In this document: positions 27,954-35,629 of the stretch, one piece after another | Position numbering within the stretch: the first letter of the stretch is position 1 | How the letters are laid out: every line of letters begins with the position of its first letter | Source: an uncultured Spirochaetia bacterium | GTDB lineage: Bacteria > Spirochaetota > Spirochaetia > Sphaerochaetales > Sphaerochaetaceae | NCBI GenBank assembly: GCA_905236385.1 | Contig: CAJOOY010000006.1 | Coordinates: 1-64,000 of the forward strand | Direction of reading: 5' to 3' | Length of the DNA: 64,000 nt | Position numbers and translations under genes: made by a program | Notes under the pieces: model-generated | Databases searched by the model: none | The model's input: the letters and a program-made list of their open reading frames with translations, nothing else | Told to the model about the DNA's origin: nothing

Positions 27954-28026
27954 AAATTTTTTAAAAATCGGGAATTCAACTCTTTTCAAAGAAAAATATT
28001 TTTGATAAGTTACCTTCTTGGAAATC

Positions 28027-28113
28027 AGGAGGTGATTCATGAGTCTTGGTACTTTGATTAGAACAAGCGCATTTGAATTTACCACCTTATTTTTTATTTG
28101 TATTGAATTTTAA
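28027..28113 (+). CDS. 24-codon leader peptide ahead of the uracil permease
   Basis: The bases AGGAGGTGAT (28027-28036) form a full-length Shine-Dalgarno 6 nt before an ATG at 28039; it sits in the loop of a small hairpin (AATCA/TGATT). The ORF runs 24 codons to TAA (28111-28113): a mostly hydrophobic peptide starting MSLGTLIRTS, with five phenylalanines from U-rich codons. The stop codon touches the left arm of a terminator. Strength of the ribosome site, size and position argue for a regulatory leader ORF, not a functional protein. ORF coordinates are 28039-28113. Confidence 0.65.
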
Positions 28114-28145
28114 GACAATCACTTTTGTGGTTGTCTTTTTTTTTG
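28112..28145 (+). terminator. Intrinsic terminator/attenuator before the uracil permease
   Basis: AAGACAATCAC (28112-28122), loop TTTT, GTGGTTGTCTT (28127-28137), then an unbroken U-run to 28144: an 11-bp stem with one G-U pair. It begins at the stop of the leader ORF and ends 25 bp before the permease ATG, so it must be bypassed if transcription starts upstream of the leader. Confidence 0.85.
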
Positions 28146-28169
28146 GGAATCTTTTTTAGGAGAATAAAT

Positions 28170-29543
28170 ATGACAGAAATTTCAAATCAGCCAATCAAAG
28201 ATGCAACAGTTCTTGGAACACCGAAGATGATGGTTCTCGGACTTCAGCATCTGTTTGCAATGTTCGGTGCAACAGTTCTTGTTCCGATTCTTGTAAATTC
28301 CTTTGGACTTCCGCTTTCAATGCAGACAACTCTGCTGATGGCAGGTCTCGGAACTCTTCTGTTCCACCTGATTTCAAAGTTCAAGGTTCCTGCATTCCTC
28401 GGTTCATCCTTTGCGTTCCTTGGTGGTTATGCTGCAGTTGCAGCTCTTAATACAGGCAAGTATGCAACTATCTCAGCAGCTGAGAAGCTTCAGTACGCTG
28501 GTGGTGGAATAGTAGTTGCTGGACTACTGTACCTTGTTCTTGCACTGATTATGAAACTTGTCGGAGTAAGAAAGGTCATGAGATTCCTTCCACCTATTGT
28601 CACTGGTCCGATCATTATCCTGATTGGTCTCAACCTTGCTCCTTCTGCAGTATCTAACGCAGCTACAAACTGGCCACTTGCAATTCTTGCCATGGGTATA
28701 ATTATTGTTGCAAACATCTGGGGTAAGGGAATGATCAAGATTATTCCTATCCTTCTCGGTGTAGTAGGCTCCTATGTAATAGCTCTCATAGCTAACCTCT
28801 TCGGAGCAAACCTGATTGACTTTACAGCAGTCAAAGAAGCTGCTTGGATTGGACTTCCACAGTTCTGCACAAACTTCTCAGGCTCTATTGCAAAGTTTGA
28901 TGTAACAGCAATTCTTGTTATGGCTCCGATTGCAGTTGCAGCCATGATGGAACATATTGGTGATATTTCAGCCATCTCTGCTACAGTTGGTGAAAACTTT
29001 GTTGAAAACCCAGGCCTGAACAGAACACTTCTCGGTGACGGTCTTGCAACAGCCATGTCTGCCTTCTTCGGAGGTCCTGCTAACACAACATACGGTGAGA
29101 ATACCGGAGTTCTGGTTCTTTCAAGAGTTTACGATCCAAAGGTAGTCAGACTTGCAGCCATCTACTCAATAGTTCTTTCCTTCTGCCCGAAGTTCTCAGC
29201 TCTTATCAACTCTCTCCCAACAGCAATTGTTGGCGGTGTTTCATTCATCCTCTACGGTATGATTTCAGCAATTGGAGTCAGAAACGTTGTTGAGAACAAG
29301 GTTGACTTCACACAGTCCAGAAACCTGATTATTGGTGCTCTGATCCTTGTATGCGGTCTTGGATTCACAGATGGAATTACATTTAACATTGGAAGTGCAA
29401 GTGTAACTCTTACAAGTCTTGCAATAGCTTCAATCGTAGGAATTCTGATGAATGCAATCCTTCCTGGTAAGGATTATGTCTTTACTACAGATGGAGATGT
29501 AACAAGAGAGGGTTCACATCCCGGAGATCTTGGAACATTCTGA
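28170..29543 (+). CDS. uraA: Uracil permease (NCS2/UraA family)
   Basis: 457 residues. The protein is very hydrophobic, with about 12-14 membrane segments, and carries the NCS2 family features: VLGLQHLFAMFGATVLVPIL at the start, FLGSSFAFLGGYAAVAAL, and MEHIGDISAISATVGENFVENPGLNRTLLGDGLATAMSAFFGGPANTTYGENTG in the centre, which holds the substrate glutamate. MEHIGD and TTYGEN favour uracil over xanthine. AGGAG is 7 nt before the ATG at 28170. It imports uracil for salvage. A leader ORF and terminator precede it and a 14-bp terminator follows. Confidence 0.93.
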   Translation: MTEISNQPIKDATVLGTPKMMVLGLQHLFAMFGATVLVPILVNSFGLPLSMQTTLLMAGLGTLLFHLISKFKVPAFLGSSFAFLGGYAAVAALNTGKYATISAAEKLQYAGGGIVVAGLLYLVLALIMKLVGVRKVMRFLPPIVTGPIIILIGLNLAPSAVSNAATNWPLAILAMGIIIVANIWGKGMIKIIPILLGVVGSYVIALIANLFGANLIDFTAVKEAAWIGLPQFCTNFSGSIAKFDVTAILVMAPIAVAAMMEHIGDISAISATVGENFVENPGLNRTLLGDGLATAMSAFFGGPANTTYGENTGVLVLSRVYDPKVVRLAAIYSIVLSFCPKFSALINSLPTAIVGGVSFILYGMISAIGVRNVVENKVDFTQSRNLIIGALILVCGLGFTDGITFNIGSASVTLTSLAIASIVGILMNAILPGKDYVFTTDGDVTREGSHPGDLGTF

Positions 29544-29683: not shown

Positions 29684-29765
29684 TGGAGAGAGAAGGATTC
29701 GGACCTTCGAAGACATCGTCAACAGATTTACAGTCTGCCCCCTTTGACCGCTCGGGAACCTCTCC
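29684..29765 (-). tRNA. tRNA-Tyr (GTA)
   Basis: 82 nt with a 7-bp acceptor stem (GGAGAGG against TCTCTCC), D arm GAGCGG-containing loop, anticodon stem with GTA in CTGTAAA, a class II long variable arm and T loop GTCCGAATC. Discriminator A; CCA is not encoded (next bases GCT). The long variable arm is normal for bacterial tRNA-Tyr. Confidence 0.95.
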
Positions 29766-29773
29766 GATAATAC

Positions 29774-29798
29774 GACCTCTCTAATTGAGAGGTCTTTT
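29774..29798. repeat. Hairpin between the two tRNA genes
   Basis: GACCTCTC (29774-29781), loop TAATT, GAGAGGTC (29787-29794): perfect 8-bp stem. On the plus strand it is followed by TTTT; on the minus strand, the tRNA direction, no U-run follows. It may guide processing of the tRNA precursor or stop antisense reading. Confidence 0.6.
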
Positions 29799-29799
29799 A

Positions 29800-29873
29800 A
29801 GCCACCTGTCGGATTCGAACTGACGACCCCGAGATTACAAGTCACGTGCTCTGGCCAACTGAGCTAAGGTGGC
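29800..29873 (-). tRNA. tRNA-Thr (TGT)
   Basis: 74 nt with acceptor stem GCCACCT/AGGTGGC, D arm AGCTCAGTTGGCCAGAGC, anticodon TGT in CTTGTAA, and T arm loop TTCGAATC. Discriminator T; CCA not encoded. It is transcribed first, with tRNA-Tyr 34 bp downstream. Confidence 0.95.
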
Positions 29874-35274: not shown

Positions 35275-35604
35275 AAGGTTTTTCAAGCAATCGCTTGTTG
35301 AGTAATCAACGAGAGGAAAGTCCGGGCCACTAGGACAATGATGCCGGTTAACGACCGGGTGCCGTAAGGCAACAGAGAGTGCAACAGAAAGTATACCGCC
35401 GGAAACGGTAAGGGTGAAAAGGTGGTGTAAGAGACCACCGGAAGAGCAGTAATGGTCTTCGCATTGTAAACCTCATCAGTGGCAAGCCCAAGAAGCATGT
35501 GGACATGTCCTTCCATAACATGCGGGTAGGGTGCTAGAGTTTTCAGGTAACTGAAAATCCAGATAGATGATTGCATAAACAGAACCCGGCTTACGAAAGA
35601 CCTT
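35275..35604 (+). ncRNA. rnpB: RNase P RNA component
   Basis: About 330 nt, bacterial type A. GAGAGGAAAGTCCGGGC (35311-35327) is the near-universal P4/J3-4 segment, matched at the 3' end by ACAGAACCCGGC (35579-35590). P1 pairs AAGGTTTTTC (35275-35284) with GAAAGACCTT (35595-35604). The start is only 8 nt after the preceding stop codon, with no clear promoter, so it may be processed from the dnaG-rpoD transcript. Ends are accurate to a few bases. Confidence 0.95.
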
Positions 35605-35629
35605 TATTATTTATTTAAGGAGGATTTTG

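Follow-up and report, generated by a model that had tools for sequence, protein, structure and literature searches.

A short leader ORF and terminator ahead of a permease gene in an uncultured spirochaete: a probable ribosome-coupled attenuator of uracil uptake

In the window (the whole 64,000-nucleotide stretch of spirochaete DNA analysed here), a short open reading frame (ORF) and an intrinsic terminator stand ahead of a permease gene. An earlier sequence-only reading had described a Shine-Dalgarno (SD) sequence, a 24-codon ORF, a U-rich stretch and an 11-bp terminator that starts at the ORF stop, and had proposed that together they control uracil uptake in the manner of E. coli pyrBI. We re-read the window to the base and found every leader element where it had been placed; the SD, the ORF length and the terminator stem were confirmed, as was, by recount, the number of T. 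The features of the locus, all on the plus strand, are:

27983..28011, plus strand: probable promoter of the leader and permease (-35-like TTTTCA at 27983-27988, 17-bp spacer, extended -10 TGaTAAGTT at 28003-28011)
28020..28094, plus strand: predicted helix P1, pairing the SD/start region (about 28020-28039) with the U-rich tract (about 28074-28094)
28027-28036, plus strand: leader SD, AGGAGGTGAT, read from the sequence; part of the 5' arm of P1
28039..28113, plus strand: leader ORF of 24 codons (MSLGTLIRTSAFEFTTLFFICIEF) plus TAA (ATG at 28039, stop at 28111-28113)
28071..28110, plus strand: U-rich tract, 23 T of 40; proposed both as the site of UTP-dependent pausing and as the anti-SD arm of P1
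28112..28144, plus strand: intrinsic terminator P2, AAGACAATCAC-TTTT-GTGGTTGTCTT followed by a T run; its foot shares bases with the stop codon of the leader
28158..28162, plus strand: permease SD, AGGAG
28170..29543, plus strand: NCS2-family permease whose closest characterised relative is the uracil permease UraA (profile and structure matches)

The P2 hairpin (28112-28137) has an 11-bp stem and a 4-base loop, then nine T (28136-28144), and was found again by another scan. When we scanned 538 kb on both strands (the window and the loci of its relatives), we found 90 terminators, and the permease leaders were the sole short ORFs with a strong SD that end at a terminator stem, which places the layout beyond chance.

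The permease matches PF00860 and scores 309.6 bits against TIGR00801 (cut-off 291.8), and its best solved structures are uracil permeases. Its score against the uracil permease model NF007995 is 312 bits, and because this is under the strict equivalog cut-off of 477, uracil is a probable rather than a proven substrate. Searches of the window genome (G000; 1.4 Mb, 96% complete) for pyrB and pyrE returned weak paralogue matches only and neither gene was found, so the organism probably depends on uracil uptake. The genome's only gene resembling uracil phosphoribosyltransferase (L156; G000:C14:10260-10559, minus strand, plus flanks) encodes a 354-aa variant that is conserved in the family and matches that enzyme mainly in its C-terminal part; this salvage gene has no such leader. 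Two tRNA genes lie on the minus strand just 3' of the permease (29684-29873), and an ordinary bacterial RNase P RNA (class A) lies at 35275-35608.

A comparison of the leader in related genomes had been proposed as a check. We read the leaders of orthologous permeases in four genera of the window's family, g1 (L001-L004), g9 (L005), g10 (L007) and g8 (L008-L012 and L031), leaving out L006, where the contig ends too early. All 12 leaders have an SD (scoring 5-6 of 6 in every case), an ORF of 19-34 codons, a U-rich tract and a terminator before the permease. The SD, start, frame, stop at the terminator foot, U tract and hairpin are kept, and the hairpin is kept between genera with changed sequences in both arms (for example AATCAACC/GGTTGATT, GTCAGCCA/TGGCTGAC and CGGGACTG/CAGTCCCG). 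The peptide is not kept, and it has no Pfam match. In g1, the window's own genus, the four leader ORFs are each 24 codons long and align without gaps, and substitutions are equally frequent at codon positions 1, 2 and 3, indicating that the leader peptide is not under selection. An amino-acid attenuator (for phenylalanine, for example), or a regulatory or arrest peptide or small protein, could draw on the finding that Phe is the commonest residue over 53 leaders (175 of all leader residues); however, Phe shows no in-frame enrichment (0.178 in the true frame vs 0.205 and 0.205 in the other two), the peptides diverge freely with substitutions even over codon positions, and the target is a nucleobase permease. 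We regard such an explanation as highly improbable.

The sequence-only reading had not found a promoter with confidence. This stands to the extent that the window promoter is weak alone and is missed by a consensus scan, but comparison with relatives allows a candidate to be proposed. When the relatives are aligned, an element with the same 17-bp spacing and TGn extension is seen at this position 5' of the SD (for example TTGACC-17-TAATTT in L005 and TTGACC-17-TATGGT in L007). Because this promoter-like element recurs just upstream of the SD, transcription would be expected to start at about 28018-28022, ~10 nt 5' of the leader SD. The possibility that the permease transcript instead starts 3' of the hairpin, which the sequence-only reading had raised, is not favoured, given the conserved promoter-like element 5' of the leader and a gap of 29-76 nt between hairpin and permease in the leaders. 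The terminator lies ~159 nt past the stop codon of an upstream DUF1015 gene and could end the DUF1015 transcript too. That it is a plain terminator of that gene, beside a chance ORF and with the permease promoter further downstream, is nonetheless very unlikely: the leader is kept where its 5' neighbour differs (a tRNA in L007, another gene in L010), the promoter-like sequence falls between the upstream gene and the leader, only 25 nt separate the T run from the permease start (ATG 28170) in the window, and no similar ORF-plus-terminator occurs elsewhere in the 538 kb scanned.

In B. subtilis, the PyrR/pyr-leader system (RF00515) likewise places a conditional terminator before pyrimidine genes, including the uracil permease, but it needs PyrR and its RNA site. 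In the window genome, we found no PyrR protein (weak phosphoribosyltransferase matches only, with the PyrR of genus g17 as positive control) and no PyrR-binding RNA (RF00515), and both are also absent from the relatives with the ORF leader. The earlier statement that no PyrR-binding consensus is present was thus borne out. In the sister genus g17 of the same family (L163-L165, L032-L036), a PyrR gene adjoins the uracil permease and faces away from it, and the permease leader matches the PyrR site only weakly, at 34 bits, short of the Rfam gathering cut-off. The g17 permease is of a different lineage that groups with PyrR-bearing Clostridia in the tree, and it appears to have been acquired separately, from such Clostridia. 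The g17 case speaks for a PyrR-binding attenuator, and a nucleotide riboswitch belongs to the same group of explanations; for the window's leader either is scarcely credible, with PyrR and RF00515 missing from the leader-bearing genomes, no known riboswitch, T-box or other RNA family matched in Rfam (loose thresholds gave chance-level matches), no conserved aptamer core, and conserved sequence limited to the SD, tract and terminator while the middle of the leader is not conserved. P1 and P2 are, moreover, not mutually exclusive. The Clostridia genomes with a clear leader ORF have no PyrR, and in the five Clostridia genomes with PyrR the leaders are PyrR-like, absent or unconvincing as an ORF, which suggests that PyrR-type and ORF-type leaders are alternatives on related permeases.

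The ORF leader itself extends to Oscillospiraceae, among them the cultured Pseudoflavonifractor capillosus (L042). In an independent sample scored by preset rules, an ORF and terminator precede 39 of 70 Oscillospiraceae permeases, although a small number of the 39 seem to be false calls. The leader stop lies within -1 to +3 nt of the stem in 32 of the 53 leaders scored; all 53, chosen for having a stop thereabouts, have it either at the foot of the stem or within the hairpin. In one Oscillospiraceae permease (L063), the leader ORF runs on past the terminator until its end overlaps the start codon of the permease (ATGA). In the tree, 13 spirochaete permeases form one clade (96/95) nested in Oscillospiraceae permeases that have the same leader. 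Because of this placement, we think that the permease gene and its leader were probably acquired together from gut Firmicutes (Oscillospiraceae); the simplest reading would be that gene and leader entered the ancestor of these spirochaetes in a single transfer. The tree thus suggests that a regulatory leader and its gene crossed phyla together.

To describe the U-rich tract, we compared its composition with that of the surrounding coding sequence. Third-position T is 55% in the last 12 codons vs 26% in the ORF codons before them and 21% in the genes for the permease (Fisher p 1e-9). In the window, 20 of the 36 nt at the 3' end of the ORF are T, and no in-frame 36-nt stretch of the permease coding sequence equals that. 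We found no A enrichment in the tract, so the U bias is strand-specific rather than a matter of AT richness. The tracts hold about twice as much U as C, even in GC-rich genomes; in Oscillospiraceae tracts, C also makes up about 26%. The tract is in addition partly complementary to the leader's own SD, a feature that the sequence-only reading had not described. Since U richness and SD complementarity overlap in the sequence, part of the pyrimidine bias could stem from SD pairing instead of UTP sensing; in the independent Oscillospiraceae set, two thirds of the G on the SD side pair with C.

When we folded the leaders, the SD was paired with the U/C-rich tract (helix P1) in nearly all of them. 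A purine-rich SD and a pyrimidine-rich tract can pair by composition alone, so we tested P1 in three ways: cognate tracts were compared with swapped ones and with dinucleotide shuffles, and SD accessibility was predicted for transcripts of growing length. In each of the two sets, cognate pairs are stronger than swapped pairs (permutation p 5e-5) and than shuffled ones, and predicted SD openness drops from ~0.5-0.6 to ~0.1 as the tract emerges. All three results held again in the independent Oscillospiraceae set (cognate -24.8 vs -21.0 kcal/mol, z -6.6; predicted openness from about 0.5 to 0.08). The significance holds over the leader set, while the window's own P1 is weak (shuffle p about 0.06), as is P1 in L004 and L009-L012. 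By inspection, L002 differs from L001 and L004 by two double compensatory changes and one lost pair in P1. In E. coli pyrL, the predicted fold likewise sequesters the SD of the leader by pairing it with the U tract, with a single-sequence p of 0.29 that is not significant. We rejected antiterminator or riboswitch switching because P1 and the terminator fold together, leaving no exclusive alternative structure, and we rejected pairing of the SD with the 5' arm of the terminator (GGTGATT/AATCAC in the window), which is not conserved in L002, L003 and L005. The predicted folds suggest that P1 acts as a gate, such that the leader loads a ribosome only until the tract has been transcribed.

A ribosome-coupled attenuator of some kind is very likely at this locus. 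The more specific reading, an attenuator of uracil uptake of the E. coli pyrBI type with UTP as its signal, is in our judgement probable, and the earlier proposal of a pyrimidine-type leader is supported where it is computable (ORF, U tract and hairpin conserved; PyrR and its sites absent). Termination in E. coli falls from ~90% to under 10% when a ribosome sits at a stop codon a few nt ahead of the terminator (PMC4824070), and the pyrBI leader is described as a short ORF overlapped by a run rich in uridine, by way of which UTP changes coupling (PMC3641672). At the window locus, low UTP would slow RNA polymerase as it crosses the U-rich final part of the ORF; the leader SD would stay free meanwhile, and a ribosome could load and trail the polymerase closely. 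On reaching the stop codon at the terminator foot, this ribosome would cover the 5' arm, no terminator would form, and the permease would be transcribed. With ample UTP, the polymerase would leave the tract fast, the tract would pair with the leader SD to form P1 and shut ribosomes out, and the terminator would form and end the transcript. The permease would then most likely be made only when UTP runs low. We put forward only tentatively that the U-rich tract doubles as a UTP-sensitive slow zone for polymerase and as an anti-SD that closes the leader's ribosome site.

An attenuator of the same build might instead respond to the supply of ribosomes, to growth rate or to the overall speed of polymerase (through ppGpp, for example), with P1 as a general timer. 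The ORF, the stop position and P1 would be conserved whichever signal is used, and the C content of the Oscillospiraceae tracts fits such a signal as well. Set against this are the excess of U over C, GC-rich genomes included, and the placement of the layout before pyrimidine genes (permease and pyrB) and nowhere else in the 538 kb of spirochaete sequence; we consider a signal other than UTP unlikely.

Among known systems, the UTP-sensing reading of the window leader comes close to E. coli pyrBI, which also has an SD and a short ORF (pyrL), a U-rich tract inside the ORF and an intrinsic terminator before a pyrimidine gene. However, pyrL is 44 codons long and continues across the terminator, whereas the window's 24-codon ORF stops at the stem foot, and the pyrBI target is aspartate transcarbamylase (ATCase), whereas here it is a permease in another phylum with a UTP response that we infer. 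In E. coli rph-pyrE, the terminator follows closely on the end of an upstream ORF, as in the window, and can be blocked by a ribosome at the ORF stop; that ORF is a full enzyme gene, whereas the window's encodes a tiny non-conserved peptide. In E. coli upp-uraA, reiterative transcription controls the uracil permease by UTP level, which is also the control proposed here, but it acts at the start site, without a leader ORF and terminator.

We found no published report of such a leader in our literature search, the main attenuation review being outside that search. If the UTP-sensing reading is true, ribosome-coupled attenuation by UTP reaches spirochaetes and gut Clostridia without PyrR, and covers uracil uptake and not synthesis alone; in the literature we found, it is described for enterobacterial pyr genes only. 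If the tract's dual role is also true, UTP would gate ribosome loading through a timed window for translation initiation, possibly in common with E. coli pyrBI, for which we found no such description in the literature searched. The pairing of SD and U tract thus offers a testable idea about the timing of ribosome loading in such attenuators.

Before pyrB, we found a matching layout in three Clostridia (L168, L266 and L179), with P1 not significant in L179. Most of the Oscillospiraceae (including L185-L187) and Lachnospiraceae pyr operons examined are without an ORF leader, so the ORF leader is one of several solutions. In genus g8 (L118-L121), ATCase is 526-545 aa long, apparently a pyrB-pyrI fusion, and its leader has an ORF of ~16-20 codons whose stop falls at or within the hairpin of a terminator (ACCGG...CCGGT). 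With little U and no clear SD, these g8 leaders are suggestive of a weaker form of the layout. In five Lachnospiraceae loci (L261, L262, L263, L267 and L272), a conserved gene lies 5' of pyrB and its stop falls ~5-11 nt before a terminator, as in E. coli rph-pyrE.
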